A DNA stretch of 64,000 nucleotides from Rhizoctonia solani (lineage: Eukaryota > Basidiomycota > Agaricomycetes > Cantharellales > Ceratobasidiaceae). The position numbers and the translations under genes are program-made. Under the pieces are notes generated by a model. It did no database searches. It was not told where the DNA came from and worked only from the letters and a program-made list of their open reading frames with translations. Below are positions 25,145 through 53,379 of the stretch, piece by piece. Positions within the stretch are counted from its first letter, which is position 1. Every line of letters starts with the position of its first letter. The DNA lies in assembly GCF_016906535.1 (NCBI RefSeq), contig NC_057380.1, positions 372,001 through 436,000 of the forward strand, written 5' to 3'.

Positions 25145-25617
25145 GGAACTATTGTCTAAAGTCAAGCAGGATGATAAATGCACCTTCAAAAACCATCCCC
25201 CTTCAGTTACAGTGGATGGGGAAGAGGAATACAAAGTTGAAGGCATTACAGACGCAGAAGAACAAAACAAGAAATGGTTCTTCAGGGTCAAAAGGAAGGG
25301 ATACTGTCATAAACAGAGGAAAATAAAACTAGCTGGAATTGAACCAGCTTGACCACTAAGCCATAGAGCCCTATTATTCCTCTGCTGACAACCCATGATT
25401 ACACCTGCTACCCCCCAAATTTGGGCTTGGGCCAGCATGCAACCACTTGTACTGGTCATGTGAATGTGTCCAGGACAGATACAGCTCAGAAGAAAACACT
25501 TGGAAACCACAAGAAAACCTAAAAAATGCCAAAAAGATTTTGAAAAAGTACAAAAAAGAGATGAAAGAAAAGGACCTTGGCATGGCCAAGGTCCTTAGAG
25601 GGGGGGCAGTGTTGTAG
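25145..25617 (+). pseudogene. Element E pol, C-terminal remnant with chromodomain
   Basis: Only the last ~100 codons of an E pol of the G/H family remain: LLSKVKQDDKCTF, VDGEEEYKVEGITDAEE, KWFFRVKRKGY, then after the 173-bp insertion SSEENTWKPQENLKNAKKILKKYKKEM and LRGGAVL. This is the chromodomain and tail that directs family integrases to heterochromatin. The stop TAG lies at nucleotides 6-8 of the 3' LTR (25610). The N-terminal side is cut by the W2 LTR. WKGYG has changed to RKGYS. Confidence 0.85.
25305..25477 (-). mobile_element. 173-bp tRNA-arm mini-element, copy A
   Basis: Inserted into the E chromodomain codons with perfect TSD GATAC (25300-25304 and 25478-25482). Ends are TGTCATAAACAG and CCAGGACA, so TG..CA like an LTR. 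On the minus strand it holds TGGCTTAGTGG (25353-25363; fits a Pol III A box) and GGTTCAATTCC (25335-25345; near-perfect B box) only 7 nt apart. The latter lies in a perfect T-arm hairpin AGCTGG-TTCAATT-CCAGCT. A CCCAAATTTGGG palindrome lies near 25418. It differs from copy B (53207-53379) at only about 4 positions and has the same length. Confidence 0.9.
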
Positions 25618-25702
25618 ACACACTTGAGACCACAGAATCTATTCCAATTTTCTCAAATTTAAACAAAGACAAACAAAGGACATTTTTAATCACATGACCT
25701 TG

Positions 25703-26157
25703 TGTCATGAGCCACACCCCTATTGTGCCCTTTATTCACATACCAGGGCACTCATGGTACACACTACAGCCACCGAAAAGACGCATATACTCGCACTTAC
25801 GCACTCAGAACCCCCAGGTTCCCACATATAAGAGACTTATGGTCAACATGGCTGGACTTAGTGATATTCTCTAAGTCCAGGTCACATGACCTCCCCCCCT
25901 CCAGTCCTTTATCAAATACTATACTAAACTACTACAGATTTGAGGTGGGGGGGATGACATAATCTCTTCTATAATAATATATTATTCAGACCTTGCCTGC
26001 AGGCTCCCTTAACATTGGCCTGCAGCTAGGGGGGCAGGGGGAGTGCAACATCCCCCAGCAACTTATTATTAATATATCACTGTGCATCATATATACTGTA
26101 TATATCTTTGACAGTGGATATATATGGTAATAATCCCTCCAGATATGGGTTATGACA
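25703..26157. mobile_element. 455-bp TGTC..GACA element of unknown family
   Basis: Interrupts the E LTR with a perfect TSD CCTTG (25698-25702 and 26158-26162). Ends TGTCATGAGCCA and its imperfect inverse GGGTTATGACA. AT-rich, with G-runs (GGTGGGGGGGATG, AGCTAGGGGGGCAGGGGG) and a TATATATCTTTGACAG stretch; no ORF of note. It may be a solo LTR of another family or a compact non-autonomous element. Confidence 0.75.
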
Positions 26158-26512
26158 CCTTGGCACTTATATCACATGCTAAGCACCAAGCCATGTCCCC
26201 ACCTGTGCTTACTCAGCCACATAGCTACCTCCACCTGATGATGACATTATGACACATTGTCCTAGATGTCTGTAAGGATGTTGAGGAGGTGGGCACTTGC
26301 AGCCGGATGTATCTAAGTAGAAACCACTTAAGGCAGTGTGCAAGCTACCTATGACAACAACCAGCTATACTATGACAACCAAGGCTGTAGGGCAATGGCA
26401 AGCTATGTAAGTACAACAGAGAGGCCGCTTAAGGCGGTGTAGACAAGGTGGACTAAGTAGTTACCAGGCAGTAAGGCCCTTGTACAGTGTGGGGATGCAA
26501 CAAGAGGTAATT

Positions 26513-27072
26513 TGTTATAACCTCCTAACATATACCATCAGAATTGCCTGAATTTTCTGTTATTTTTAGTATTTTTTATGGACTTGATATCTCATGTTTT
26601 TTGATCACGTGATCTTGGCGCCTATTCATGCCAAGATGCCGCGCCAAGATGCCGTGCCAAGGGTGCTTAGGAGAAATCCACGCTTCTGCGCAGCCCGCAG
26701 CATGCTTCTCATTTGTCTTCTGTACTTCTTTCTCTCACGCGCACAGACCATGTAGATAGTGCGCTTTGTCTATATACAGCAGGGAAATTGCTTGGAAACA
26801 CCAAGTCAATTTTACCTTGTCTCATCTCATTGAGGAGGACCCATCCAGCCAGCTAAGTAGCTGGCCCCTAGTAGTTCAGTAGATCACCCCTCATTGCGCT
26901 TACCACACCTCCAGGGCTAAGCCCCCCTTGCCAGTAGTTTAGTCAGTAGACGGTTACCTTACGTAACCTTAGTATAGCCTTAGATAGTAGTCATATAGCC
27001 TTGTTTGTAGTAGTACGGCCCCAAGCGCCCAACTCACTAGCGTGTGACCAACCTTACAGTTGGGTCACAACA
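26513..27072 (+). repeat. Z 5' LTR (560 bp)
   Basis: TGTTATAACC to GGGTCACAACA. Contains GATCACGTGATC (E-box core CACGTG) near 26604, repeated GCCAAGATGCCG units and a TATATA box near 26770. About 33 nt after the box lies AAGTCAATTTTAC (26803-26815), the match of the primer site. Ends with the CCAACCTTACAGTTGGG hairpin, into which G inserted in the 3' LTR. Confidence 0.9.
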
Positions 27073-27074
27073 TT

Positions 27075-27087
27075 GTAAAATTGACTT
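27075..27087 (+). other. Z self-primer site (13 nt)
   Basis: GTAAAATTGACTT, starting 2 nt after the 5' LTR, is the exact reverse complement of AAGTCAATTTTAC at 26803-26815 near the predicted 5' end of the Z transcript. This is the Tf1/sushi self-priming layout. Confidence 0.75.
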
Positions 27088-27590
27088 CTTGTAGGCTTGA
27101 TCAACAACAAGAAGAACTCCCGTACTAGCACGAGGGAAAACGGGTGATTGGACTTGCCTTTCAGCTTTAATAATCAAACAGCTGTTGGTCCCACCCAGTA
27201 CCAAATTGCTATAAGGCGGACAGTCTCTAATTGTCCGCATACCACATGTTTTGCTGGAACACAGCAGTTAGCAATCCTAGACAGCTGAACCACCTGCTTG
27301 CAAAAAACCCGCTTGTATCACAATTGCCAGATCTGTTGATTTGTTGTAGGGATTGTTCAACGCTAGGTGTTTGACGCAAGGATTTAGCGTTCACACACTG
27401 CGCAAAAACCACTCATAAGTCCTGAATCAGGCACTCCTATCCCCCACGCCGTCTCCACAATTCCATCTACACGCTCTGGCGTCCCACACCCCTACTCCCG
27501 TCCTCCAGTTGCTCCAGTCACCGCTCTATTCCATCCCATTCCCAACCGCCCACTTGCAGCTCATCTCCCACTTTGCAAGACCTGCCCAGA

Positions 27591-28777
27591 ATGGAACCAG
27601 AGCCGTCCCTTGGCACTCTCCTCAAGGCTATCACAGCCCTCACCACACAGTTGGGTCCCTCCAGGACCAAATCAGAACACAAGGCCAACAGATCAACAAA
27701 CTCAAGGCCATATGCAAGGAGACTGCCAACCTGCTTGGCGACAAGGACCAGGGAAGAACCCAAGCCCAGCCTGGCCCATCAACTGGGCCTATCACCCCTC
27801 CTACTCAGACAGGAGGAGAAGCCCACTCTCCAGCAACGGTTAGGCCTGGGCTCAAGGCCCCTTTCCGCCCTTCAAGGGGTACAGGGTATGACTCAGAAGA
27901 AGAGGAAGACAGGCGAACCCCAAAAAGGGAACCTCGTGACACGCCTAGGCAGGGCCTCAGCTCCCTCACCCCCTTTGACTCAGGGTCCAGTGTAAAGCGG
28001 CCCAAGATGGAACTCCCTGACCCTTACAAGGGCAATACCAGAGGACGCAAGGCTACCCAATGGCTTGACAGAATGCTGCTCTGGGTTGCCCTACACAGGG
28101 ATCAATTTGATGATGAGGAGCAGATGGTTGTGTGGATACTCTACCACATGACGGACAAGGCAGCCGATTGGGCACTCCCCCTTATTGGGGCTATCATCAA
28201 GGGAGAGGGCAACCCTCCATCCACCATCCCGGCCCTGACGGCCAAATTCAAGGAGGCATTTGCCAATCCCAACGCAAAAAGGGCTGCCACCAGGAAGATT
28301 GCCGCGTTGACTCAGACAACCACCATGTCTGAGTATGTTACCAAATTCCGCAACCTCATGGCGGAACTTGACTGGAACACTGAGGCATACATTGCCCAGT
28401 TTACGCGCGGTCTTCACTGGAAGGTGAAGGAACTCTTGTCCACCAAGGACAACATTCCCAACAATGACCTTGAGGCCATATTTGCCGCCTTGGTCAAGAT
28501 TGACAACACTTGTTGGGAAAACAAGGAAAACTGCCCCAAAAAGGTACCTGCCAAGCCCTTGGCCACTGTGGCCACTTCCACTACCACCACTAGGGTCCGC
28601 CTATCCGAGGACCCCAACTACGTCACCCCGGAAGAAAGGGACCGCCGCCGCGCATCAGGGCTATGTGTCAAGTGCGGTCAGAAAGGACACGGGATCAAGC
28701 AGTGCCCCAATGGCTGGAAAGCCACAATCAAGGAGGCTGCCAAGATAGGAGAAGTTGTGGAATCGGAAAAAGAGTAA
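27591..28777 (+). pseudogene. Z gag with CCHC zinc knuckle, one frameshift
   Basis: ATG 27591 (MEPEPSLGTLLKAITALTTQLG). One missing base near 27655 forces a frame change before the coiled coil SLQDQIRTQGQQINKLKA. Then come a Pro/Ser linker, the capsid-like core (WLDRMLLWVALHRDQF, GLHWKVKELL) and the nucleocapsid knuckle CVKCGQKGHGIKQC (about 28666-28707), ending EKE with TAA at 28775. The pol frame is -1 relative to gag, but the slip site here reads GGAAAAA instead of GGGAAAA. Confidence 0.85.
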
Positions 28778-31700
28778 GGCCAAGAGCTGCCGTCAAGCCC
28801 TTGGTCTCAAAATTAGAATTGCATGTATCTATCTCGGAGTTTGTAAATATTGCAATGGACTCAAACAAGAAACCATTACTCTTTCTAGATATGTTACTGT
28901 GTGACTATCCAACGGACCCTATCAAAACACTCATCAACTCTGGCGCCACCTCCAATTTTATATCCCCCTTGTTAGTAGAACAACTCAAAATCCCAAAAAC
29001 CCTACTTGAAAATCCACAAGTAGTGAGAATGCTAGATGGTACCATATCTCAGACTGGTTGCATTTGGCACCAGGTTAAACTCGCGGTCTTGGCCAATGGC
29101 CATCCTCACATTATCCCTTTTCTTGTTTGTCCCATAGGCAAACACACCCGCAATTCTAGGCATGACATGGCTGACTACAGAATCCCCTCTCATTGATTGG
29201 CAACAGGGACTGGTCACCTTCCCTGAACAGGTACAGATTGCCTCCAAAGAAGAAGCAGACCCGGACCCCTTAGCAGACCTACCCCCTCAATATCATGAAT
29301 TTGCTAAGGTATTTGGAGAAGAGGAGTTCAAAGTCCTACCCCCACATAGGGAATACAACATTGCTATAGATCTTGTCCTGGATGCCAAACTTTCCCCTGG
29401 CCCCATATACGGAATGACGGATGTGGAATCCAAGGCACTGAAACAGCATATTGACGAGGAATTGGCAACAGGCAAGATTTGCCCCAGCACCTCATCCGCC
29501 GGCGCTCCAGTCATGTTTGTAAAGAAAGCAGATGGCTCACTAAGACTGGTAGTTGATTATAGGAAGCTAAATGACGTTACGCACAAGAACGTTTACCCAC
29601 TCCCTAGACAGGACAACCTCATGGCCAAACTCAGGCATGCCAAGATCTTCACCAAATTGGACTTGCGTTGGGGATACAACAATGTTTGGATCAAGGAAGG
29701 CAACAAATGGAAGACGGCCTTCAGAACCAAATATGGCCTATTCAAATACTTAGTCATGCCATTTGGCCTCACAAACGCCCCGGCCGCTTTCCAACATTTC
29801 ATGAATGATTTGTTCAGGGACCTAATAGACGTGAATGTAGTAATCTACCTGGACAACATCTTGATCTTCTCAGACAAACCAGAAGAACATCCAACCCACG
29901 TGAGAGAAGTCCTGTCCCGCCTAATGAGGAACCAACTGTTCTGCAAGTTGTCTAAGTGCCATTTCCATGTTACCACGGTTGACTATCTAGGCATTGTAAT
30001 CTCCCCTGCTGGGTTCTCCATGGATCAGAGAAGGTCAAGGCCGTCACATCATGGCCCACCCCCAGGACAGTCAAACAAATTCAGGCCTTCTTAGGGTTTG
30101 TAAACTACCTCCGTTGATTCATTCCCAACTTCAGTTCTGTTGCGCGCCCCTTACACCATCTCACAAAGAAGGAGACCCCTTGGTCATGGGGTAAACCAGA
30201 GGAGGATGCATTCCAGGAACTAAAGAACCTTGTCACCAAATCTCTGGTCCTTATCCACTCCAACCCAGAACTACCCTACTACTTGGAAACAGATGCCTCA
30301 GGGGTAGCTATGGGGGCAATTCTTAGTCAACAAGGTCTGGACAACAGGTTACATCCAATTGCCTATATGTCCAAGTCGTTCTCAGGGGCAGAAGCTAACT
30401 ATGACACCCACAACAAGGAACTTCTGGCTATCATCAAGGCATTGGAGGAATGGAGGATCTTCTTGGAGGCCACAGACAAGCCTGTACAGGTTTTTTCAGA
30501 CCACCGGAACCTAGAATATTGGATGCAGGCACGGACATTCAATAGGAGACACGCTAGATGGCGCATTTTCTTGAGCAACTTTAACTTTGAAATCCACTAT
30601 TGCCCGGGTAAACAGTCAGGAAAGCCAGATGCCCTCTCCAGAAGATTGGACTATGTACACCTACCCTTGGAACCAGAAGTCATGCTACCCGCGGAAGTCT
30701 TTGCAAACACTTTGGAAGAGGAGGTTGAAATTGTTGCGGAAATACGGTCTAGAATCAGAGAAGACCCCTCCCTGGAACCAATCATCCAGTTCCTTACAGA
30801 AGACGCAGATGATGCACCCCCTTCCATCCAAAAGGCTTATCGGGATTATAATTGGGAGGAAGACCTCCTATGGTACCGTGGAAAATTGGTAGTCCCAGAC
30901 TCAGAGCCTCTCAAGGAGCGGTTGCTTAAGGAATTCCACAACTCCCCGTTGGCGGGTCACCCAGGACAACAAAGGACGTTAGAACTCCTTAGCCAAAACT
31001 ACTGGTGGCCAGGAATGAAATCATCTGCCAAGGAATGGGTAGAATGCTGTCCTACCTGCCAAGCCAATTGCTGAGCTCACGCCCCTGCCATTGCCCTAAA
31101 GCCGTTAGAAGTTCCCCCTTTCCCGTTCCACACAATATCCTATGACTTCATCACGGGATTCCCCAAGTCTAATGGGCACAATGCAATTCTAGTGGTAATT
31201 GACTCCTTCTCCAAGTTTGGTCATTTCATCCCAACCACAAAGAAGGTCACAGCTAAGGGCCTAGCCAACCTGTTCATCACCCACGTTTGGAAGTTACACG
31301 GACTACTGGTCAAAACAGTCTCAGACCGCGGGACAACGTTCACAGGGAAATTCCTAAGAGCATTATACCAACGCCTTGGAATCAAACCAGCCTTCTCTTC
31401 AGCCTACCATCCGGAGTCAGACGGACAAACGGAAAGGGTGAACCAATTTATCAAGTTCTACCTTAGGTCCTACATTGCGGCAGATCATTCAGACTGGGCT
31501 ACCTGGTTACCATTAGCAGAATATGCGTACAACAACGCCAGACACTTGGCCACAGGAAAGACCCCCTTTGAACTTGTCTATGGAAGAAACCCTGTCATGA
31601 GTCCATCCAATGTACCAGCAAATGTCCCAGAAGCCAACCACGTAGCCAACACCCTGGCTCAAGAATGGAAGGAAGCAGAATCTGCCCTGAGACTAACAAA

Positions 31701-32187
31701 GGAAAGAATGGCAGGAAACAAAGGAATAACCCCGGAATACGCAATTGGCAAAAAAGTCTGGCTGGATGGGAGAAACGTGGAGCTTAGAACCAACTCCAAC
31801 AAGTTGGACCCTAAGAGACTAGGCCCTTTCAAAGTCTTAGAACAAATATCCAGCCATGCATACCACCTGAAACTTCCGGAAACCTTGAAGATCCATGACG
31901 TATTCTATGTAGGGCTGTTATCCAAAGTCCATGAGTCTCCCAGTCAACCCTTCCCAGAACGTCCCCCTCCAGAAACAGTTGAAGGGGAAGAAGAATACAA
32001 GGTGGAACAGATCATTGACTCCAAAATGCAACAAGGAAAATGGTTCTACTTGATAAAATGGAAGGGCTATGGACCAGAAGATAATTCATGGGAGCCAGAA
32101 GAACTCCTGGAACACAGTCAGGAGGAAATTCAACGCTTCAACAAGTTACGACTGAAAAAGGCTTGTGACTCCGCCAAGAGCCTTTAA
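28752..32187 (+). pseudogene. Z pol (PR-RT-RNaseH-IN-chromodomain), inactivated
   Basis: Protease motif reads INSGAT where the family has IDSGAT (about 28931), so the catalytic Asp is lost. RT is recognisable (VVDYRKLN, TKLDLRWGY, FGLTNAPAAFQ), but the catalytic box reads YLDN for YLDD (about 29848). RNase H starts ETDASG; IN has the H..H..C..C zinc finger (GHPGQQRTLELL, CCPTCQ) and core (VIDSFSKF, SDRGTTF, DGQTERVN); the C-terminal chromodomain reads WFYLIKWKGYGPEDNSWEPEE. Breaks: frameshifts near 29150 and 30030, TGA at about 30114 (from CGA) and TGA at 31072 preceded by Cys (from Arg-Arg). Stop TAA at 32185, before the PPT. Confidence 0.9.
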
Positions 32188-32198
32188 GGGGGGGGCAA

Positions 32199-33888: not shown

Positions 33889-34120
33889 CTGCCCCCCCTC
33901 TAAGGGCCTTGGCGGCGCCGAGGGCCTTCTTTTTCATTTCTTTTTCAAATTTTTCTAGGATTTTTTTGGCGTTTTTGAGGTTTTCCCTTGGTTCCCAGGT
34001 ATTCTCCTCTGATCCGTAGCCCTTCCATTTTACCCTAAAAAACCACTTTCCGTTCCTCTCTTCCATGTCTGTGATCCCTTCAACCTCGTATTCTTCTTCT
34101 CCATCCACGGTAACAGGTGG

Positions 34121-34692: not shown

Positions 34693-34694
34693 CT

Positions 34695-35490: not shown

Positions 35491-36061
35491 TGTCGTAGAC
35501 ACAATTGATACCAGGGAATTTATCCCCATTTTCTCGAATTTAAACGAAGACAAACGGACAACCTTTTCAATCACGTGACATCGGCGCTTATATCATACGC
35601 TAAGCGCCGAGCCACGTCCCCATCTGCGCTTATCTCAGCATACGTAGCCACCTCCACCTGATGACATCATTATGACACGTCAGTGACACGTATGCATGAG
35701 TAAGGCCAACTGCGGATTGGGGTTCTTATTTGATACAATATTGCATATAGTTGTATTTGTAATTAGATAGCTCTGTAATATATAAGGAGGCCAACCAACC
35801 ATGGTAACACCCAGGTCGATTACCTCTTGTCGCACTCCACACATTGTACAAGGCCTTACAGCCGGTAACACTTAGATACACGCCTTAAGCGTCGTTCTCA
35901 TTGTACTTACATAGCTCGCCACCGCCTTATAGCGCGTGGTCATTGTAGTTAGATAGTTTGTCGTCGTAGGTAGCACTCCCACCGCCTTAAGCGGTCTCTC
36001 ACTCAGTACATACGGCCACAAGCGCCCGCTGCCTCGACGCCCCTTAAGGACGTCTAGGACA
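35491..36061 (+). repeat. N 5' LTR (571 bp)
   Basis: TGTCGTAGACACAATTG to ACGTCTAGGACA. Holds CACGTGA, the GCGCTTATATCAT hairpin, TATATAAGG near 35779, the self-priming partner AGGTCGATTACCT (35813-35825) and U5 units with ACCGCCTTAAGCGGT. Confidence 0.95.
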
Positions 36062-36063
36062 CT

Positions 36064-36076
36064 AGGTAATCGACCT
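36064..36076 (+). other. N self-primer site (13 nt)
   Basis: AGGTAATCGACCT, exact reverse complement of 35813-35825, which starts about 34 nt after the TATA box, where a transcript 5' end is expected. Confidence 0.75.
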
Positions 36077-36548
36077 TAAGTCGGTTGCAAACCGTGCCCA
36101 CCAGCACACACACTTAGCCCAACAACGAGAAGGCCCCTAGTACTAGCACAAGGGAAATCAGGTGATCGGGATCGCCTTTCGCTGTCAATAATCAAACCAG
36201 CGTCGTCCCCACCTAGTACCGAATTGCTATAAGGCTAACGGGTTCTAATCGTCCGCATACCATCGGTTGCCGCACCTTTCGTTAGCGACCCTAGACAGCC
36301 AATCCACCCGCTTGCAGAAGCACTGCCCCGCATCACGCCCGTCCACGGCAGTTGATCAGGGTAAGAACTGTCCAACGCTAGGCCGGTTGAGGCAAGGGTT
36401 TAGCGTATACATACGATAAAGCGCTCATAAGTCCTGATATAGGCACCACTAGTCCTTCACACACACCGTCACCATTACCTCCCGCACTCCTCCTCGTTCT
36501 TCTTCCCGGGCATCCTCCCACGCTGGCCGGTCCTACCCCACACATTCC

Positions 36549-37904
36549 ATGGCAACCCGCTCCCGGCCGCCCTCTTGAGTCCGCTCCCCTATCGATCAGG
36601 GGGAGTTGGGACCCTTTCTTCCGCCAGCCTCCCCTGAGCTCGGCAAAGTTTCACTCGAGCGGGTTATCCGCCTCCTCTGGGGGCTCCAAGCCCAAGTCGA
36701 CCGCATTGAGCGGACCCTCTCGGAACAAACAGAAATTAGCCGAGAGGTTCAAACCAACGTCGAGAATATCTTGCAAACAGTCGATGTTGTCAAGGATGGG
36801 CTTGTCCAGCTCCAACGCGCCCGGGGTCCCTCTACCCCAGAAGAACGAAAACCCCCCGCGGTCGAGGAAACTCCCAGGGCCGTGCCCAAAGCCGAGCCTG
36901 TTGGCAAGGCTCAACCATCCCTCGGGGCCCCAGCCCCCATCATTTCCACAGGGGCCCCAAGGCGCGACCCCCTCACCCTCTTCAACCCCTATCCTTCCTC
37001 CTCTTTCCCTTCGGGACCGGCTCCAGCCACCCAAGGACCTCCACCAGCGCCTGTCATCACCCCGGCGCAGCCTCCAGCCCCCTCCACTGTAAAAGTGGAT
37101 CACCCAGATGCCTTCAAAGGCAAGATTGGCTCAGAGGCCAAACAATGGCTAACACGCATGCTAGCCTGGGTACGCCTAAATCAAAGGCAATTCCCAACGG
37201 ACCTGGAGGTTCTCTCCTTCCTCCTCATGAACATGGAGGAAGCAGCTGGGGCTTGGGCCCATCCCCACTTGGACCAACTGGGGTCCCATCGCGCACTCAT
37301 CCAAACCGTGGATGAGTTCAAAGTTGAGTTCCTGGCCACCTTTGGCAACCCAGATGCAACCAGAGCAGCGGAGCGGAAGATCACCTCCCTCACTCAGACC
37401 GGCACTTGTGCCGAATATATTACTAAGTTCCGCACGCTGCAAATGGAACTCGACTGGAACGATGCCGCACTTTGCGGCCAATTCGCGCAAGGGCTCCACT
37501 GGGAGGTCCGCAAACAAATTGCCACGAGGGAAAGGCAACCAAGAACTCTGAGGGAGCTACAAGATGCCGCCCTCATCATTGACAACGCCCTCCGCAAGGA
37601 GCGAGCCAGCCACCCGCAACAGGGTAATAAGTCTGGCAAAACCTCTTCCACCCCCAACCGGGGGGCGAGTACCGGCCAACAGGCCACCAAAACCGGTCCC
37701 CTCTCCTCCGATCCCAATTACGTTTCGGAGGAAGAGCGCAACCGCCGCCGCGCAGAAGGTCTCTGTGTCAAATGCGGCAAACCCGGGCATAGATTTGCCG
37801 AATGCCGGACTGGATGGAGGGCTACCCCTAAAGAGGACAAGGGGAAAGCCAAGGAAGCTGCCAAGATTGGCGAAGACTCCAAGTACCAATTGGGAAAAGA
37901 GTAA
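36549..37904 (+). pseudogene. N gag with early stop codon
   Basis: ATG 36549 (MATRSRPPS) followed by TGA at codon 10 (36576-36578), where G and H read Arg; TCT-CGA to TCT-TGA is a TCG to TTG change. The remaining frame is open to TAA 37904: coiled coil (QAQVDRIERTLSEQTEISRE), Pro-rich linker, capsid-like core (WLTRMLAWVRLNQRQF, GLHWEVRKQI) and CCHC knuckle CVKCGKPGHRFAEC. Gag could restart at an internal ATG, but the family start is lost. Confidence 0.85.
37892..37898 (+). promoter_or_regulatory. -1 frameshift site GGGAAAA, N gag/pol
   Basis: In gag phase it reads G-GGA-AAA followed by GAG TAA, a textbook X-XXY-YYZ heptamer. The pol frame is -1. A GC-rich stretch (CTGCTGCCGCGCGCAAGG) follows and could form the downstream structure. 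Confidence 0.7.
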
Positions 37905-40900
37905 GGGTACCTGCTGCCGCGCGCAAGGACCCCAAGGACTCTGGCTTGTGTTTGGAATTTTGTAACATATCATCTACCAATAGAATTGCACCTCTCTTCA
38001 CAATTCCAATACGGCCAGAAAAAACAGCGGAAACATTAGAAGTCCTGATTGACTCAGGCGCCACGTCATCATTCTTACACCCTTGCACCGCGGAATCACT
38101 CCGCCTTCCACTCATTGATCTCCCCACTCCACGTACCGTTACTATGCTTGATGGGTCGAGCCCCCAGGCAGGAAAAATCTGGAAGAAGGCAGTACTCACC
38201 TTCACCTATGATGGCAAAAAGATGACGGAAACCTTCCTCATCTGTAACACTGGCAACCATGCGGCCATCCTAGGTTTGAAATGGTTAGATGCTCATAACC
38301 CGGAAATAGATTGGAACACGCGCACCCTATCCTTCCCACACACTCCGCCAGAACATGTGGCCATTGCCGAAGAGGAAGAAGCTGATCAGAACCCTCTTGA
38401 AGGAGTACCCTCCAAATACCACCAATACGCTAAGGTATTTGGAGAAGAAGAATTCAACAAGCTTCCCCCCCATAGGCATTACAATATTGGGATCGAACTC
38501 ACCGAAGAAGGCCCCCTCAATTCTCCCCTCTATAGTATGACAGATGCCGAGTCTGCCACACTAAAAGACTGGCTCAGGGATGAGTTGAAAGCAGGGAAAA
38601 TCCGCCCAAGCAAATCTTCAATCAGTTCCCCCGTCATGTTGTTCCAAAGAAGGACGGTTCCCGCCGCTTGGTTGTCGACTACCGCCGCCTTAACAACCGG
38701 ACAAAGAAGAACGTATACCCGTTACCCCGTCCAGACGATCTTATGGCCCAGCTCCGTGGTGCCAAGGTTTTTACCAAACTGGACCTAAGATGGGGTTACA
38801 ACAACGTCCGCGTCAAAGAAGGCGACAAATGGAAGACCGCGTTCCGAACCAAGTATGGCCTATACGAATCCCTTGTCATGACCTTTGGCCTGACCAATGC
38901 CCCTGCCTCATTCCAACATTTCATGAACAATCTATTTAAGGATTTGTTGGATGTATGCGTCATCATCTACCTTGACGACATCCTGATCTACTCTAAGGAT
39001 GACGCATCTCACACGCAGCACGTTCATGAGGTCCTAAAGCAGTTAATGGAGAATCAACTGTTTTGTAAGGCTTCCAAGTGTACGTTCCACGTCACCTCCG
39101 TGGAATATCTAGGGATCATTGTATCGGATAAAGGTTTTAGCCTGGATAAGCTCAAAATCCAGGCAGTACAGGAATGGCCGGTCCCCACAAAGGTCAAAGA
39201 GGTCCAATCGTTCTTGGGTTTTGCCAACTTTCTCCGCCGATTCGCTGCCAACTTCAGCCACATGGCTAGGCCACTACACAATTTGGTGAAGAAGGACACG
39301 CCATGGAAATGGGATACCAGGGAACAGGAAGCCTTTCAGGGTCTTAAAGACGCTATCACCAATGCCCCGGTTCTTTGCCACGCCGACCCGACAAAGCCTT
39401 ATTTCCTAGAAACGGATGCATCAGGAGCAGCCCTGGGGTCTATACTCAGCCAACAACAGGAAGACGGCCGCCTACACCCATTAGGGTTCCTATTGGAATC
39501 ATTCAAAGGTGCCAAACAAAATTACGACACCCACGATAAGGAACTCTTGGCAATCATAAGGTCGTTTGAATACTGGCGTATCTTCTTGGAGGGGACCCTA
39601 CATCCCATCACCGTCTTCACAGATCACCGGAACTTGGAATACTGGAAGGAGTCCCGTACCTTTAACCGTCGTCATGCCAGATGGCACTTACTCCTTGCCG
39701 GTTACAACTTCCAGATTGTCTACCGCCCAGGGAAACAGTCCGGAAAACCCGACGCTCTATCCCGCCGATCTGACCATGCCGATATTCCCCCTGCAAACCA
39801 GACAATGCTTCCTGACCCCGTATTTGCTAACGTAGCCCTGGTGACTCCCAAAAAAGAACTCCAACGTCAAATAGAGTCCGCCCTAGACCAAGACAAATCA
39901 CTGGAGGAAATATTACAATTTCTCCAAAATGAGTCAAAGGTGCCCCCCTCAATCAAACGAGCTTTCAAGGACTACCAGATGGAGGCCGGGTTACTATTCT
40001 ATCAAGGACGTATTGTGGTCCCAGACGTCGGAACGCTGAGGACTGATCTACTCCGTATCTTCCACAATAGTCCTCTGGCAGGGCACCCAGGAAGGCAGCG
40101 CACTCTGGAATTGATCTCGCGAAACTACTATTGGCCTGGCATCCGTGCAGACACCTACTGGCACGTTGATTCTTGCAAAACCTGCCAGCGGATTCGGAAA
40201 CCCAAATACGCGTCCATTCCCCCTCAACCATTGGAACTACCATCACGGCCTTGGCAACATGTGTCTTATGACATGATAGTGGATCTACCCAAAGACGGAA
40301 ACAATGACTCCATCCTGGTCATTGTGGATAGCTTTACCAAATACGTGATCCTGGTGGAATGCTCCAAAAAGCTCAAAGCCCCGGAATTGGCGGACCTGTT
40401 CTTGCGACACGTGTGGAAGCGTTATGGCATGCCCGAAAAAACAGTATCAGACCGTGGGAGGTGTTCAACAATAAGTTCCTAAGGGCCCTGTACCAGCGCC
40501 TGGGAATAGACCCCCACTTCTCTTTGGCCTACCACCCACAAAGCGATGGGCAAACTGAGCGCGTAAATCCTACAGTCGAGCACTTCCTACGGGCCTATTC
40601 AGGGATCAACCAGAAGGATTGGGTAAAATGGCTACCAATGGCGGAGTTTGCCTATAACAACGCGGTTCATAGCGCCACAGGCAAAACTCCATTCAAGGCA
40701 CTTTACGGTTGGGAACCATTACTCACACCAAGCAACATCCCGACGGACGTCCCGAAGCTGACAATCTGGCCACTCAAATGGAAGCACAATGGCGGGAAGT
40801 GGAAGCGGCACTCCGGCAATCAAAAACACGTATGACAGCCGGGGAGACAGGAGAACCATTAACCTTCGAAATTGGGGAAGAGGCCTGGCTAGATGCCAAA

Positions 40901-41331
40901 AACGTGAAGCTGAAAACTTTAAGTCCCAAGCTAACGGAACAACGCCTAGGCCCATTCAAGGTAACCAAAAAAATTTCCGACCGCGCATACCGCCTGGAAC
41001 TCCCACCATCAATGAGAATCCACGATGTCTTCTACGTAGGACTGCTGTCAAAGGTCAAAAGGGACAAAAACCGCACCTTTGAAAATCGCCCTCCACCAGT
41101 CACCGTGGACGGGGAAGAAGAATACGAGGTTGAGGGAATTACGGATGCCAAAGAAAGGAACGGAAAATGGTTCTTCCAAGTCAAATGGAAGGGATATGGG
41201 TCCAAAGAAACACGTGGGAGCCCCGAGAAAACCTAAAAAACGCCGAAAAAATTTTAGAAAAATACGAAAAAGACATGAAAAAGAAGGCCCTCGGCGCTGC
41301 CAAGGCCCTTAGAGGGGGGGCAGTGTCGTAG
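37893..41331 (+). pseudogene. N pol (PR-RT-RNaseH-IN-chromodomain) with single-base deletions
   Basis: PR IDSGATSSFLH near 38050; RT VVDYRRLNN, FTKLDLRWGY, FGLTNAPASFQ, YLDDILIY; RNase H ETDASGAALGSILS, HARWHLLL; IN zinc finger (GHPGRQRTLEL, SCKTCQ) and core (VDSFTKY, SDRGR, DGQTERVN); chromodomain EEEYEVEGITD..VKWKGYG. All catalytic residues visible are intact. Single bases are missing near 38640, 40460, 40757 and 41208, each at a short run. Stop TAG at 41329-41331 in the LTR. Confidence 0.9.
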
Positions 41332-41894
41332 ACACAATTGATACCAGGGAATTTATCCCCATTTTCTCGAATTTAAACGAAGACAAACGGACAACCTTTT
41401 CAATCACGTGACATCGGCGCTTATATCATACGCTAAGCGCCGAGCCACGTCCCCATCTGCGCTTATCTCAGCATACGTAGCCACCTCCACCTGATGACAT
41501 CATTATGACACGTCAGTGACACGTATGCATGAGTAAGGCCAACTGCGGATTGGGGTTCTTATTTGATACAATATTGCATATAGTTGTATTTGTAATTAGA
41601 TAGCTCTGTAATATATAAGGAGGCCAACCAACCATGGTAACACCCAGGTCGATTACCTCTTGTCGCACTCCACACATTGTACAAGGCCTTACAGCCGGTA
41701 ACACTTAGATACACGCCTTAAGCGTCGTTCTCATTGTACTTACATAGCTCGCCACCGCCTTATAGCGCGTGGTCATTGTAGTTAGATAGTTTGTCGTCGT
41801 AGGTAGCACTCCCACCGCCTTAAGCGGTCTCTCACTCAGTACATACGGCCACAAGCGCCCGCTGCCTTGACGCCCCTTAAGGACGTCTAGGACA
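41324..41894 (+). repeat. N 3' LTR (571 bp)
   Basis: Preceded by the PPT AGAGGGGGGGCAG. Identical to 35491-36061 except for one C to T in a TCG context. Confidence 0.95.
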
Positions 41895-46500: not shown

Positions 46501-46969
46501 AGTTCGAGATTGGAGAAGAAGCCTGGCTGGACGCCAAAAACGTCAACCTCAAAACCTTGAGTCCAAAACTTACGGAACAACGCCTAGGACCATTTAAGGT
46601 TACTGAGAAGATCTCCGACCGGGCGTACCGCCTGGAACTCCCTCCTACCATGCGAATCCACGACGTCTTCTATGTAGGACTCCTGTCTAAGGTCAAAGAG
46701 ACAAGAAACGCGCCTTTGAGAATTGCCCCCCACCAGTCACAGTGGATGGGGAAGAGGAGTACAAAGTGGAAGGAATTACCGACGCAGAGGAACGCAACGG
46801 GAAATGGTTTTTCCGGGTAAAATGGAAGGGTTACGGCTCTGAAGAAAACACATGGGAACCCCGGGAGAACCTTAAAAACGCAGAAAAAATTTTGAAAAGA
46901 TACGAAGAGGACATGAAAAAGAAGGCCCTTGGCGCCGCCAAGGCCCTTAGAGGGGGGGCAGTGTCATAG
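43532..46969 (+). pseudogene. H pol, IN region broken by clustered single-base deletions
   Basis: A -1 frame runs open from the slip site to 45598 with PR IDSGATSSFLH, RT (FTKLDLRWGY, YLDDILIY) and RNase H (ETDASGAALGS). Then single bases are missing near 45597, 45902, 46053, 46075, 46105 and 46185, all within IN, plus one near 46710. The chromodomain frame 46742-46969 (WFFRVKWKGYGSEENTWEP, LRGGAVS) is intact and ends TAG inside the 3' LTR. Confidence 0.9.
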
Positions 46970-47533
46970 ACACACTCGATACCAGGGAATTAATTCCCAT
47001 TTTCTCAAATTTAAACGAAGTTAAACGGACGACATTTTCAATCACGTGACATCGGCGCTTATATCATACGCTAAGCGCCGAGCCACGTCCCCACCTGCGC
47101 TTACCTCAGCATACGTAGCCACCTCCATCTGATGACATCACTATGACACGTCAGTGACACGTATGCATGAGTAAGGCCGACTGCGGAGCGGGGTTCTTAT
47201 TGGATCAGGTTTTGCATATTCTGTATTTGTAATTAGTCTTTTCTGTAATATATAAGGAGGCCAACCGACCATGGTAACACCCAGGTTGATTACCTCTTGT
47301 CGCATCACACATTGTACAAGGGCCTTACAGCCCAGTAAGATTACTTAGATACACGCCTTAAGCGTCGTCCTTGCTGTACATACGTAGTCTGCCACCGCCT
47401 TATAGCGCGTGGCCATCGTAGTTAGTTAGTTCGTCGTTGTAGGGTACCTAGTCACCGCCTTAAGCGGTTCTACTGTATAGATACACGGCCACAAGCGCCC
47501 GCACCCTCGACGTCCTTACAGACGTCTAGGACA
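46962..47533 (+). repeat. H 3' LTR (572 bp)
   Basis: TGTCATAGACACACTCG to ACGTCTAGGACA, followed by GGTGG and the resumption of G pol. Confidence 0.95.
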
Positions 47534-50500
47534 GGTGGGGGCCGGTTCTCAAAGTTGCGCTTTTTGTCCCTTCTGACCTTTGACAGGAGCCCCACGTAGA
47601 AGACATCGTGGATTCTCATGGACGGCGGGAGTTCCAGGCGATACGCGCGATCGGAGATTTTCTTGGTCACTTTGAAGGGACCTAGGCGTTGTTCCGTTAG
47701 CTTGGGACTCAGAGTCTTCAGCTTCACGTTTTTGGCGTCTAACCAGGCCTCTTCTCCAATTTCAAACTCGAGTGGTTCTCCTGCTTCTCCGGCTATCATA
47801 CGTAATTTTGATTGCTGGAGCGTGGATTCTATTTCCCGCCATTGTGCTTCCATCTGTGTTGCCAATTCGTCTGCCTCAGGGACGTCCGTTGGTAGGTTAC
47901 TTGGGGTTAAGGATGGTTCCCATCCGTATAGTGCCCTGAATGGGGATTTGCCTGTAGCACTATGTACCGCATTGTTATAGGCAAATTCCGCCATTGGCAG
48001 CCATTTGACCCAGTCCTTCTGGTTTACCCCTGAGTAGGCCCTCAGAAAATGCTTGACCGTCGGGTTCACGCGTTCTGTCTGTCCATCGCTCTGAGGGTGG
48101 TAGGCCAAGGAGAAGTGGGGGTCTATCCCCAGGCGTTGGTACAAGGCCTTCAAGAATCTATTGTTAAAGACCCGTCCTCGGTCCGATATCGTTTTCTCAG
48201 GCATGCCGTAACGTTTCCATACGTGTCGTAGGAATAGGTCCGCCAGTTCCGGGGCTTTGAGCTTCTTGGAGCACTCTACCAAGATAACGTACTTAGTAAA
48301 ACTGTCCACAATAACTAAGATAGAGTCATTGCTTCCGTCTTTTGGCAGGTCCACTATCATATCGTACGACACATGTTGCCATGGGCGTGAGGGGAGTTCT
48401 AATGGTTGGGGCGGTATGGTTGCGTACTTGGGCTTTCGGATCCGTTGACAGGTTTCGCAGGAGTCAACATGCCAGTATGTGTCAGCGCGTATGCCGGGCC
48501 AATAATAGTTCCTTGATACCAATTCCAAGGTACGCTGTCTTCCTGGGTGTCCTGCCAAGGGGCTGTCGTGGAAGATGCGAAGTAGGTCCGTTCTCAGAGT
48601 TCCAACGTCAGGGACCACGATTCGTCCTTGGTAGAAGAGTAGGCCGGCCTCCATCTCGTAATCCTTGAATGCGCGTTTGATGGAGGAGGGTGCCTTGGAC
48701 TCATTTTGGAGGAATTGTAGTATTTCCTCCAGGGATTTGTCCTGGTCCAGGGCAGCCTCAATCTGGCGTTGAAGCTCCTTTTCAGGGGTCACTAGGGCCA
48801 CGTTGGCAAATATTGGCTCTGGAAGCATGGTTTGGGCGGTGGGTGGAACGTCGGCATGATCAGCACGTCGTGAGAGGGCATCAGGTTTTCCGGACTGTTT
48901 CCCCGGGCGGTAGATAATTTGGAAGTTATATCCTGCTAACAGTAGGTGCCATCTAGCGTGGCAACGGTTGAATGTTCGGGACTCCTTCCAGTACTCCAGG
49001 TTGCGGTGATCGGTGAATACGGTGACAGGATAAGCGGTTCCTTCCAAGAAAATGCGCCAATATTCAAAAGAGCGGATGATAGCTAGGAGCTCTTTGTCAT
49101 GGGTGTCGTAGTTTTGCTCGGCACCTTTGAATGACTTGGATAGGAAGCCTAGCGGATGGAGACGGCCGTCTTCCTGACGTTGGCTGAGTATGGCACCTAG
49201 TGCCGCTCCTGAGGCATCGGTTTCCAGGAAGTAGGGTTTGGAAGGGTCTGCGTGATGTAGTACTGGTGCGTTAGTGATGGCGTCCTTCAGCCCTTGGAAT
49301 GCTTCTTGCTCCTTGATTTCCCATTTCCACGGTGTGTCCTTTTTGACCAGGTTGTGTAACGGTCTGGCCATATGGCTAAAATTGGCAACAAAGCGGCGTA
49401 GGAAGTTGGCAAACCCAAGGAAGGATTGTACTTCCTTAACCTTGGTTGGTACCGGCCATTCTTGTACTGCCTGGATTTTGAGCTTATCCAGGCTAAAGCC
49501 CTTATCGGAGACAATAATCCCAAGGTATTCCACTGAGGTCACGTGGAAAGTACATTTTGACGCCTTGCAGAACAGTTGGTTTTCCATCAGACGCCGTAAG
49601 ACCTCATGAACGTGCTGTGTGTGCAATGCATTGTCCTTTGAGTAGATCAGGATGTCATCAAGGTAAATGATGACGCATACGTCTAGTAGGTCCTTAAACA
49701 ATTTGTTCATGAAATGTTGAAAGGCGGCGGGAGCATTGGTGAGACCAAATGTCATGACCAAGGATTCGTACAAGCCATACTTGGTGCGGAACGCGGTTTT
49801 CCATTCATCGCCTTCCTTGACTCGGACATTGTTGTACCCCCATCTTAGGTCTAACTTGGTGAAGATCTTGGCGCCACGGAGTTGGGCCATGAGATCATCT
49901 GGACGGGCAGCGGGTACACGTTTTTCTTTGTCCGGTTGTTGAGACGACGGTAGTCAACGACCAAGCAACGGGAGCCATCTTTCTTGGGGACAAACATCAC
50001 GGGTGAACTAATGGAAGATTTGCTTGGTTGGATCTTTCCAGATTTCAACTCATCCCTGAGCCAGTCCTTGAGTGTGGCGGACTCAGCGTCTGTCATACTA
50101 TAAAGAGGGGAGTTGAGGGGGCCTTCTTTGGTGAGTTCAATGCCGATATCGTAGTGCCTGTGAGGGGGAAGCTTATTGAATTCTTCCTCTCCAAATACCT
50201 TGGCGTATTGATGGTACTTGGGGGGTACTCCTTCCAGGGGGTTCTCGTCAGCTTCCTCCTCTTTGGCAATGGCCACGTGTTCCAGTGGGGCATGGGGAAA
50301 GGAGAGGGTGCGTTGGTTCCAATCAATTTCTGGGTTGTGGGCGTCTAGCCACTTCAATCCCAAGATGGCGGCGTGAGACCCTGTATTGCAAATGAGGAAA
50401 GTCTCGGTCATTTTTTTGCCATCAAAGGAAAAGGTTAGGTTGGCCTTCTTCCAGATTTTGCCTGCCTGGGGGCTCGACCCATTGAGCATAGTAACGGTAC

Positions 50501-50728
50501 GGGGATGAGGGAGATCTATTAGGGGGAGGCGTAATGCCTCGGCGGTGCGTGGGTGGAGGAATGAGGATGTGGCGCCTGAATCGATCAGGACTTCTATTGT
50601 TTCCGCTTTTTTCTCTGGTTGAATTGGAATTGTAAAAAGTGGGGCATTTCTATTGATACTATTTGATATGTTACAAAATTCGAAACAACCAGAGTCCTTG
50701 GGGCCCTTGCGCGCGGCAGCAGGTACCC

Positions 50729-52081
50729 TTAGTCTTTTCCCGATTCGGGTCCAGACTCTTCGCCAATTTTGGCGGTTTCTTTCTTGACGCCTTCCTCCTT
50801 AGGCGTGGCTTTCCAGCCAGTGCGGCAATCCGCGAATTTGTGCCCTGCTTTTCCGCATTTGATGCAGAGGCCTTCAGCCCTGCGGCGGTTGCGTTCCTCC
50901 TCGGAGACAAAGTTGGGGTCGCTGGAGAGGCGCCCTGGTCTAGTGGCCTGTTGGCCGGTACTCGCCCCCCTATTGGGGGTGGAAGAGCTTCCAGACTTAT
51001 TACCCTTTGGTGGGTGGCTGGTACGTTCCTCACGGAGGGCGTTATCGATGACTAGAGCCGCATTCTGCAGCTCAAGGAGTGTTGTAGGGCGCCGCTCTTG
51101 GGTGGCAATGAGGCGGCTGACCTCCCAGTGGAGGCCTTGTGCAAATTGCCCACGAAGGGCGGCGTCGTTCCAGTCTAGGTCCATGGCGATGGTCCTAAAC
51201 TTTGTGATATACTCAGCACAGGTTCCTGTCTGAGTGAGTTGGGTAATTTGCCGCTCGGCGGCTCGCGTGGCATCCGGGTTTCCAAATGCAGCCAAGAACT
51301 CCGTTTTGAATTCGTCAACTGTTTGGATAAGGGCCCTGTGGGACCCAAGTTGATCGAGATGGGGGTGAGCCCAGGCACCTGCCACGTCCTTCATGTTCAT
51401 CAGGAGGAATGACAGAACCTCCTGATCCGTGGGAAACATCCGTTGGTTTAGACGTACCCATGCCAGCATTCGTGTGAGCCACTGGTGGGCTTCGTTCCCT
51501 ATTTTCCCTGTATAGGCGTCAGGGTGGTCCACCTTAACTGGGGCTTGATAAGCGGCTACAGGGGCCGCTGGTTGTGGGATTTGAGGGGAACGGAGTCGGA
51601 TAGGCGAAGGCGGAGGGGGAGTATGGACTTGCGGGGGAGCCCGGACGGGGGTTGGTTGTGCAAAGGCGGGGGGAGCTCTTGTGGGGTTGGCCCAGGCAAT
51701 GAGGGGTGCGCTAGGCGCTGGAAGAGGGTTGGTTTTTGATAAGGGCCTGGGCGTGGCCTCAACTGCCGGAGGTTTCCGGTCTTCTGGTGTGTGCGGGGCT
51801 CCACCCCTAGCCTCAATGCGAGTGAGGGCTTGGTCGACTGCTCCCATCCAGTCTTGGGCTTCTTTTGCTGCTTCCTTGGTTTCCTTGAGTTCCCGCTCAA
51901 GCCGGAGGACTTGATTTTGCAATCCCAGGATGAGAGAGATTGCTCGGCTGAGGGAAACTTCCCCATAGACCTCTGGTTCGAGGACTGTTGGCTCATCGGT
52001 GGTTGCCAAAATAGTGGGTCCCAACTCTCCTTGATCGAGAGGGGACGGGGGACGAGCGGTGCTCCGGGAGCGGGTTGCCAT
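50729..52081 (-). CDS. G gag, intact, 450 aa
   Basis: ATG 52081 (MATRSRSTARPPSPLDQG) to TAA 50729. Helical/coiled-coil segment (LILGLQNQVLRLERELKETK), Pro-rich linker (about residues 95-180), VKVDHPDAYTGK, capsid-like core (WLTRMLAWVRLNQRMF, GLHWEVSRLI) and CCHC knuckle CIKCGKAGHKFADC near residue 410, with a Lys/Glu tail. Gag packages element RNA in virus-like particles. Pol is reached by a -1 shift at GGGAAAA. It is the only full-length uninterrupted gag here. Confidence 0.9.
   Translation of the reverse strand: MATRSRSTARPPSPLDQGELGPTILATTDEPTVLEPEVYGEVSLSRAISLILGLQNQVLRLERELKETKEAAKEAQDWMGAVDQALTRIEARGGAPHTPEDRKPPAVEATPRPLSKTNPLPAPSAPLIAWANPTRAPPAFAQPTPVRAPPQVHTPPPPSPIRLRSPQIPQPAAPVAAYQAPVKVDHPDAYTGKIGNEAHQWLTRMLAWVRLNQRMFPTDQEVLSFLLMNMKDVAGAWAHPHLDQLGSHRALIQTVDEFKTEFLAAFGNPDATRAAERQITQLTQTGTCAEYITKFRTIAMDLDWNDAALRGQFAQGLHWEVSRLIATQERRPTTLLELQNAALVIDNALREERTSHPPKGNKSGSSSTPNRGASTGQQATRPGRLSSDPNFVSEEERNRRRAEGLCIKCGKAGHKFADCRTGWKATPKEEGVKKETAKIGEESGPESGKD
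50735..50741 (-). promoter_or_regulatory. -1 frameshift site GGGAAAA, G gag/pol
   Basis: Plus strand TTTTCCC; in gag phase TCG GGA AAA GAC TAA. Identical in position to H and N. Confidence 0.7.
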
Positions 52082-52577
52082 TTCATGAGGGTAGGAACGG
52101 CCTTGGTGGGAAGCGGTGCGCTGGGAGGCGCGGGAGGAAGCGCAAGAGGGAGTGCGGGAGGTAATGGTGGGCGATGTGGGGGAGATGGGGGCTTGTGTAG
52201 CCTAGGGTGCCTATGTCAGGACTTATGGGTTGCTTTTACTACTCGAACGCTAAACCTTTGTCTCAACCAACCTAGCGTTGGACAGTCCTTTCAACCAATC
52301 AGCAGCCGTGAGCGGGCGTGATGTGGAGTAGGTTTTCTGCAAGCGGGTGGATCAACTGTCTAAGGTCGCAGGTAGAGGGTGCAGTGACCGGGGGTATGCG
52401 GACGATTAAGACCTATCTGCCTTGTAGTAATTCGGTACTAGGTGGGACCGACGCTGGTTTGATTATTAACAGCGAAAGGCGAGTCCGATCACCTGATTTC
52501 CCTTGTACTAGTACAGGAGGCTCTCTTGTTTGTTGGATCTAAGTGGGTGGGATGCAGAACGGTTTGCAACCGACGTA

Positions 52578-52590
52578 AGGTCGATTACCT
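52578..52590 (-). other. G self-primer site (13 nt)
   Basis: Minus strand AGGTAATCGACCT, 2 nt after the G 5' LTR; the reverse complement lies in the LTR at 52841-52853. Confidence 0.75.
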
Positions 52591-52592
52591 AG

Positions 52593-53174
52593 TGTCCTAG
52601 ACGTCTGTAAGACGCCGAGGAGGAAGGCGCTTGCGGCCGGATGTATCTAAGTAGAGAACCGCGTAAGGCGGCGGCAAGCTATCCTACGGCGACGACCAGC
52701 TATACTACGATGACCAAGGCCGTAAGGGCGATGACCAGCTATGTAACTACAGCAAGAAAGCCGCTTAAGGCGGTGTGGACTAAGTAGCTAAGCGGGTTAC
52801 TGGGCTTAAGGCCCTTGTACAGCAATGGGGATGCGACAAGAGGTAATCGACCTGGGTGTTACCATGGTCGGTTGGCCTCCTTATATATTACAGAGAGTGA
52901 CTAATTACAAATACAGAATATGCAAAACCTAATCCAATAAGAACCCCGACTCCGCAGTTGGTCTTACTCATGCATACGTGTCACTGACGTGTCATGATGA
53001 CGTCATAGGTGGAGGTGGCTACGTATGCTGATTAAGCGCGGATGGGGACGTGGCTTGGCGCTTAGCGTATGATATAAGCGCCAAAGTCACGTGATTGAAA
53101 ATGTTGTCCGTTTGTCTTTGTTTAAATTTGAGAAAATGGGAATAAATTCCCTGGTATCGATTGTGTCTATGACA
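52593..53174 (-). repeat. G 5' LTR (582 bp)
   Basis: Plus TGTCCTAGACGTC to GTGTCTATGACA. CRE TGACGTCA at 52998-53005. Followed by the second TSD copy CCAAC. Confidence 0.95.
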
Positions 53175-53206
53175 CCAACCTTACAGTTGGGTCACAACAT
53201 AATTGA

Positions 53207-53379
53207 TGTCCTGGACACAGTCACATGACCAGTACAAGTGGTTGCATGCTGGCCCAAGCCCAAATTTGGGGGGTAGCAGGTGTAATCATGGGTTGTCAGC
53301 AGAGGAATAATAGGGCTCTATGGCTTAGTGGTCAAGCTGGTTCAATTCTGGCTAGTTCTATTTTCCTCTGTTTATGACA
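53207..53379 (+). mobile_element. 173-bp tRNA-arm mini-element, copy B
   Basis: TSD ATTGA (53202-53206 and 53380-53384), inserted in solo LTR R. A-box-like TGGCTTAGTGG at 53321-53331 and B-box-like GGTTCAATTCT at 53339-53349. The T-arm stem is weaker than in copy A because of two changes (TCTGGCT for TCCAGCT). Confidence 0.9.

Follow-up and report, generated by a model that had tools for sequence, protein, structure and literature searches.

The 64,000-nucleotide stretch of the Rhizoctonia solani genome analysed here (assembly GCF_016906535.1, contig NC_057380.1, positions 372,001 to 436,000; hereafter the window) carries two copies of a 173-bp unit in opposite orientation, designated copy A and copy B. 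Very probably, this unit is the solo long terminal repeat (LTR) of a young, non-coding 435-bp terminal-repeat retrotransposon in miniature (TRIM) of the Helenus (TRIMp3) kind, which would be moved in trans, most likely by a Tf1-like gypsy element such as family H of the same window. A first-pass annotation had described both copies as having LTR-like ends and perfect 5-bp target site duplications (TSDs; GATAC and ATTGA), and this was confirmed: the copies are both exactly 173 bp long, are identical at 169 of 173 positions, begin with TGTC and end with GACA.

A 435-bp TRIM and its genomic copies

The 40.7-Mb R. solani assembly (16 contigs) was searched with the 173-bp unit, and the best 40 of 348 candidates were scored. 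One open reading frame of the window has its top protein match in R. solani (86% identity) and the next in a Ceratobasidium protein (77%). The 42 matches listed included pairs lying 89 bp apart, and the two pairs that were read consisted of an LTR of 173 bp, an internal region of 89 bp and a second LTR of 173 bp, which is the arrangement that the first-pass annotation had proposed to look for. The same annotation had regarded the unit as a possible new class of element unless it turned out to be the solo LTR of a larger one; with the 89-bp internal part found, the latter is largely the case. The full element comprises two short LTRs around a short non-coding internal region, and its length of 435 bp lies below the limit of about 1.3 kb for TRIMs. 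Its internal part matched 24 places in the genome (24 of 24 candidates scored). For 20 of these the flanks were read and all adjoined TRIM LTRs, while the other four were bordered by LTR or box matches in the searches. The 3′ LTR is preceded by a polypurine tract (PPT), AAAAAAGGGGGGCAG/TGTC (the slash marks the LTR boundary).

Loci from the search lists and the window yielded 140 LTR matches, of which 134 were distinct after removal of six flank duplicates. Fourteen partial matches were excluded from the counts of ends and TSDs, which left 120 full-length LTRs (83 solo, 19 five-prime and 18 three-prime) in a sample made up of best-scoring and first-listed places and therefore not random. The ends TGTC...GACA were present in 119 of the 120. 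An exact 5-bp TSD flanked 71 of the 83 solo LTRs and 16 of the 17 paired full elements, the seventeenth (L192) being flanked by CCGAT/CCAAT. These counts support the earlier proposal that the unit moves as an LTR-type element. Of the 14 paired elements whose LTRs are equally long, 9 carry two identical LTRs; therefore, the TRIM family was active recently. The four LTR sites with at least ten variants among 109 LTRs form two CpG dinucleotides (LTR 12-13 and 143-144), as expected from cytosine methylation decay.

No two of the 87 TRIM sites with an exact TSD had near-identical flanks. For 43 of the 87, the joined flanks without the element aligned to a repeat of the window. These alignments are direct evidence of empty sites and indicate that the TRIM often nests in other transposons; one of the 43 lies inside another TRIM copy. 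Copy A sits inside the remnant of a gypsy-H element, and the paralogous gypsy-H stretches at 46800-46870 and 41160-41240 show flanks similar to those of copy A around a single, unfilled GATAC-like site. Three of the 87 sites (L045; L179, H LTR; L158, H LTR end/PBS, where PBS is the primer-binding site) are located at or near the H motif AGGTAATYRACC, as is copy B (53207), judged by its right flank. The same motif stands in front of the G LTR at 26513 and may represent a small insertion hot spot.

TRIMs with tRNA-derived LTRs were named Helenus in 2024 and grouped with Cassandra and Ajax as TRIMp3 by Kojima (PMC10886601). According to this description, Helenus elements are 311-1263 bp long, and those of fungi show 5-bp TSDs and many solo LTRs and include Agaricomycetes among their hosts. 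The R. solani TRIM resembles them in length and layout, in the tRNA-derived boxes A and B within the LTR (TRGCY..YGG and GGTTC are both present), in having a presumed PBS and a PPT, in its 5-bp TSDs and in its abundant solo LTRs. It shows the testable features that define Helenus, except that its PBS was matched to no cellular tRNA among those surveyed. It differs in its host, as Rhizoctonia does not occur in the main text of PMC10886601, in a tRNA-Gln-like part without anticodon arm, in ends and PPT that resemble Ty3/gypsy H rather than Copia, and in a PBS complementary to its own tRNA-like 3′ end, a feature reported as absent in the Helenus elements covered by that account. With Cassandra and Ajax it shares the sequence of a small-RNA gene of RNA polymerase III (Pol III) within a TRIM LTR. 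Theirs is derived from 5S rRNA and occurs in other hosts; no 5S match was found in the window or in the full-length copy L010. Cassandra carries a methionine PBS (PMC10853983). The statement of the first-pass annotation that such miniature LTR elements lack Pol III boxes was mistaken, because Cassandra (5S), Ajax (5S) and Helenus (tRNA) are described as TRIMs with Pol III boxes in the LTR (PMC10886601).

The 173-bp unit had also been compared to short interspersed elements (SINEs). tRNA-derived SINEs (SINE2) are short and non-coding and contain boxes A and B; they have no LTRs, end in a LINE-like 3′ tail and produce TSDs of variable length. The TRIM is likewise short and non-coding with boxes A and B. 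It differs in its LTRs, its PBS and PPT and its fixed 5-bp TSDs, and no LINE-type tail was seen. A novel SINE-like class with LTR-like ends, whose 173-bp unit is inserted as such by an LTR integrase, would agree with the presence of both boxes and with the 83 solo LTRs against 17 paired full elements in the sample. Nevertheless, we consider it extremely improbable: the genome contains a longer, 435-bp form that has these ends together with a PPT and a PBS-like sequence (24 internal regions found, 17 whole pairs read), recombination between LTRs is expected to leave solo LTRs behind, and elements of this kind have already been described as Helenus (PMC10886601). A new class of element was rejected on the internal regions and this description. 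The R. solani TRIM is ordinary in kind; what is new, within the searches made, is its host, along with two details of the element, the gypsy-like ends and the self-matching PBS. It adds a young, high-copy Helenus family in Rhizoctonia. No paper on Rhizoctonia Helenus or on a self-encoded tRNA primer was found among the search results listed from open-licence PMC papers.

A candidate mobilising family

The TRIM is non-coding, and its RNA would depend on proteins supplied in trans by an autonomous LTR retrotransposon for packaging and copying; the most likely supplier is a Tf1-like Ty3/gypsy family, of which H is an example. The integrase of this partner would join the TGTC/GACA ends to a target cut with a 5-bp stagger, and LTR-LTR recombination would remove the internal part and produce the solo LTRs of the window. 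We infer this partner from its terminal sequences. The TRIM reads GGGGGGCAG/TGTCCTGGACAC...GACA/CTTGG and H reads GGGGGGCAG/TGTCGTAGACAC...GACA/CTAGG, both with 5-bp TSDs. The PPT tail GGGGGGCAG in front of TGTC is common to both, the 5′ ends of the LTRs match at 10 of 12 positions, the 3′ ends (GTTTATGACA in the TRIM, GTCTAGGACA in H) match at 8 of 10, and a CT spacer precedes the PBS in both. The earlier claim that the ends are shared with the LTRs of families G and H thus holds for H, which also has TGTC...GACA, but not for G, which begins with TGTTATAAC. The element H1 represents this candidate mobilising family, although the H1 copy itself may be inactive.

The H-type open reading frame (ORF) at 47470-49953 (-) encodes reverse transcriptase, RNase H, integrase and a Tf2-1-like SH3 domain; the domain scan covered H-type ORFs of the window other than that of H1. 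The PBS of H, AGGTAATCGACCT, can pair with 13 nt in the LTR of the same element (35813-35825 and 36064-36076 in H1; the same in H2 and H3), and shuffles of the three LTR/PBS pairs reached at most 10 nt. Such complementarity is described as the signature of Tf1-like self-priming (PMC4600332). H resembles self-priming Ty3/gypsy elements of the Tf1/Tj1 type in both PBS-LTR complementarity and SH3 domain, and the TRIM shares the terminal motifs of H; it differs from Tf1/Tj1 elements in being gene-less and in a direct complementarity of only 7 nt.

For rust Helenus, mobilisation by Copia elements was proposed (PMC10886601, section 3.6); for fungal Helenus in general it was likewise inferred by Kojima, as a proposal rather than a defining feature. 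Copia elements are available in R. solani, whose genome gave 58 RVT_2 matches, but the TRIM PBS is not among the anticodon-loop types listed in that account. Only one of eight Copia loci fitted the PPT-LTR pattern, and its junction, AAGGGGGAG/TGTAGAAAT, is unlike that of the TRIM, whereas the gypsy-H ends match better. We therefore regard Copia as a distinctly unlikely mobiliser of the R. solani TRIM. From these sequences gypsy H fits better as the partner here, Copia being compared at one junction only.

Several observations weigh against the reading of the unit as the solo LTR of a TRIM mobilised by a family such as H. Twelve of the 83 solo LTRs have no exact 5-bp repeat. A family-G ORF also encodes a Tf2-1-like SH3 domain, together with a chromodomain, so that H is not distinguished by the SH3 domain on its own. 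The genome searches turned up no autonomous element with the internal sequence or the PBS stretch of the TRIM, and the partner assignment consequently rests on short end motifs. A search with the PBS stretch gave 22 non-TRIM places with two mismatches as compared to five in the control. Finally, with one of eight loci comparable, Copia was barely compared. Twelve of the 22 PBS-like places represent a single repeat, read TTGGAAGAAGTTGGAAG and were considered as the PBS of an autonomous partner; this was rejected for the five that were read, which lie within a repeat and not behind an LTR end.

The tRNA-like part of the LTR and models of priming

The first-pass annotation had reported boxes A and B only 7 nt apart. 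This spacing was found in both copies; box A is exact in both, and box B matches fully in copy A only, copy B having a single mismatch. The 23-nt string covering the boxes occurs with up to two mismatches at 315 places of the genome, as compared to none for the reversed control, hence its recurrence is not due to chance. It had no exact match in a collection of viral contigs or in one of prokaryotic genome contigs. The idea that a tRNA had lost its anticodon arm is supported by a comparison with 49 tRNAs predicted by ARAGORN in the same genome: LTR 108-150 matches a tRNA-Gln gene at 34 of 43 positions, with the anticodon arm and the variable loop missing, and 500 shuffles compared with the same predictions reached at most 28. 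The score of 34 is shared by two predictions that differ in their introns but not in their body; one of them is labelled Glu, which we put down to intron placement. The perfect T-arm hairpin noted earlier in copy A represents one state of the CpG at LTR 143-144 that varies among the copies. In the window, ARAGORN found no tRNA and Rfam gave no match at the gathering threshold; L010 gave no tRNA or 5S match up to an E value of 5.

Yeast tRNA genes have 31-93 nt between boxes A and B (PMC11724288). The 7-nt gap lies far outside this range, which makes a function as Pol III promoter doubtful; copies carrying it were amplified nonetheless. The tRNA-Gln-like stretch, which lies in the 3′ half of the LTR, may act as a structured RNA in priming or else attract Pol III factors. 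Between about LTR position 88 and the PBS, the strand is predicted to form a long rod whose tip carries the T-arm hairpin and a D-arm-like one. Compared with shuffles, the 3′ half of the LTR together with the PBS region is far more stable (z −4.2, 0 of 200 shuffles), and none of 300 mononucleotide shuffles folded as well as LTR 85-173 alone. This gain is due mostly to a long flanking inverted repeat. For the bare 52-nt mini-tRNA with CCA, the minimum free energy fold has a 12-bp T/acceptor stack and a 3′ ACCA overhang, but this RNA shows no excess stability (z −0.88) and has a centroid without acceptor stem; further versions gave z −1.06 and −1.88 (two of 47 nt) and −2.96 (59 nt). Structural conservation was unusable as proof of a functional tRNA-like RNA, because the copies are too young and the most variable sites are the two CpGs. 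In full-length copies such as L010 (internal positions 3-36), the PBS region can pair with AGTTCTATTCC further in, a near-duplicate of AGTTCTATTTTCC in the LTR.

Behind GACA/CT, 18 of the 19 five-prime LTR junctions that were read carry the same presumed PBS, TGGTAGAACT; in the remaining one (L109), both the PBS region and the LTR contain a deletion. As the window copies are solo LTRs, the TAGAACT of this PBS is seen in full-length copies at other genome sites. The complement of TGGTAGAACT is AGTTCTA-CCA, i.e. the tRNA-like 3′ end of the TRIM itself followed by CCA (10 nt). A pattern of T-loop, five stem bases and AGTTCTA with at most one mismatch matched 335 genome places as compared to 67 in the control, and the approximately 100 places listed carried the T-arm of the TRIM. 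The tRNA-like part of the LTR hence ends, at the correct distance from the T-arm, in the very sequence that the PBS requires, and TTTT follows. The chance of seven matching letters in register is 1 in 16,384 by simple arithmetic. When the LTR was shuffled, 99 of 2000 sequences contained a 7-nt match to the first 14 internal nt, and at least 20 of 1000 matched the first 30 internal nt over 8 nt or more.

Three primer models remain: the TRIM's own tRNA-like RNA with CCA, Tf1-like self-priming, and a cellular tRNA unseen so far. The last could plausibly be the primer, since TGG located 2 nt past the LTR corresponds to a classical tRNA-type PBS and the tRNA survey is incomplete, with 61 matches from the best 63 of 1859 candidates scored and 59 of these 61 fetched. 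Furthermore, T-arms reading GTTCAATTC would be indistinguishable from the TRIM, and GATCRANTC or unusual T-loops lie outside the patterns. Against a cellular tRNA, the searches covering G57, A57 with a residue 59 other than T, and a residue 60 other than T brought up no tRNA 3′ end in which TTCTA stood in register. The patterns for other T-arms gave 3, 7 and 18 matches, or 3, 5 and 14 without TRIM copies, as compared to 14, 10 and 13 in the controls, and none of the 17 loci fetched from these matches contained a tRNA according to ARAGORN, while a known tRNA run alongside was found. Among the 49 ARAGORN predictions, the longest 3′-end run matching the PBS was 3 nt; in this partial survey of predictions and in-register searches, the PBS was assigned to no cellular tRNA. 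Anticodon-loop priming by tRNA-Gly(TCC), with a match of 7 nt in the genomic sequence and 9 nt across the splice that starts 10 nt from the LTR end, was considered and judged unlikely.

Alternatively, though rather improbably, the element may encode its own primer: an RNA from the tRNA-like part of the LTR with a 12-bp T/acceptor stack, discriminator A and CCA added post-transcriptionally would anneal to TGGTAGAACT. In agreement with this model, AGTTCTA occupies exactly tRNA positions 67-73 counted from the T-arm, and a pattern for any tRNA 3′ end built from the PBS matched the TRIM's own LTRs. With CCA, the cDNA would end in GACA-CT and leave a 2-nt overhang as in H. The model explains both this overhang and why the PBS contains TGG although the LTR reads TTTT at the corresponding point; an unseen tRNA ending in AGTTCTA would explain both equally. 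However, only 7 nt are encoded, a length also reached in the LTR shuffles mentioned above, the CCA-bearing mini-tRNA is no more stable than its shuffles, the box gap makes transcription by Pol III doubtful in view of the yeast range (PMC11724288), and the tRNA list is incomplete. Moreover, Kojima reported no complementarity between the tRNA-like LTR sequence and the PBS in the Helenus elements treated there (PMC10886601).

Tf1-like self-priming, in which the R-U5 part of the TRIM RNA itself pairs with the PBS and is cut to form the primer, appears unlikely. Three H LTR/PBS pairs of the window show 13-nt complementarity, the TRIM shows 7 nt, and H is the likely partner. Yet the match of the TRIM stops exactly where CCA would join, as the LTR continues with TTTT while the PBS needs CCA, it spans 7 instead of 13 nt, and priming in this way would leave five instead of two extra nucleotides on the U5 end.

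Tentatively, one can picture from these sequences a TRIM that carries its own reverse-transcription primer, a mini-tRNA made of T-arm and acceptor and lacking the anticodon arm, in which promoter relic and primer form a single module borrowed by a self-priming, Tf1-like gypsy machinery. If so, an LTR-derived RNA of about 50 nt ending in AGUUCUACCA would be expected; a primer of this kind would constitute a new way of starting reverse transcription and would suggest why TRIMs capture tRNA genes. The R. solani family calls two generalisations on fungal Helenus into question, namely that Copia is the mover and that the tRNA-like part is unrelated to priming.

Feature coordinates and interrupted copies

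The coordinates of both window copies and of H1 are compiled in Table 1.

Table 1. Positions in the window of the two solo LTRs, their parts and the element H1.
Feature	Position	Strand	Remark
Copy A, solo LTR of TRIM	25305..25477	(-)	173 bp
Copy A TSD, low-coordinate side	25300..25304		GATAC
Copy A TSD, high-coordinate side	25478..25482		GATAC
Copy A box A-like sequence	25353..25363	(-)	TGGCTTAGTGG
Copy A box B-like sequence	25335..25345	(-)	GGTTCAATTCC; 7 nt past box A
Copy A tRNA-like stretch (LTR 107-154)	25324..25371	(-)	3′ end AGTTTTA; AGTTCTA in most copies
Copy B, solo LTR of TRIM	53207..53379	(+)	173 bp
Copy B TSD, left	53202..53206		ATTGA
Copy B TSD, right	53380..53384		ATTGA
Copy B box A-like sequence	53321..53331	(+)	TGGCTTAGTGG
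Copy B box B-like sequence	53339..53349	(+)	GGTTCAATTCT
Copy B tRNA-like stretch (LTR 107-154)	53313..53360	(+)	
Copy B tRNA-like 3′ end	53354..53360	(+)	AGTTCTA; complementary to TAGAACT of the presumed TRIM PBS
Copy B TTTT directly 3′ of the tRNA-like end	53361..53364	(+)	possible weak Pol III terminator
H1, Ty3/gypsy	35491..41894	(+)	terminal motif, PPT tail and CT spacer as in the TRIM; flanked on each side by the TSD CCAGA

Some TRIM copies are interrupted. The LTR L031 was called three-prime from its GGGGCAG flank alone and is not included in the 17 pairs; it probably belongs, as 3′ LTR, to the copy containing L109, from which an insertion of several kb would separate it. This presumed insertion (contig C10, about 795-802 kb) starts with TGTCATGACC, ends with GTGACA within the TRIM PPT and is associated with a GGGGG duplication. 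Another repeat, ending in GGGTGTAACA, interrupts the copies L124, L152, L182 and, in reversed orientation, L178. L124 was considered as a sister family with a different U3 region; this was rejected, because the GGGTGTAACA with which its left part terminates cuts the other copies as well, and L124 is read as an interrupted copy. L162 and L194 show a TRIM LTR immediately before another truncated LTR, and a TRIM that had inserted into a TRIM. The transposon block of the window is flanked by a 4.7-kb ORF-bearing duplication (7121-11765 and 54680-59347) with 94.8% identity in the same orientation.

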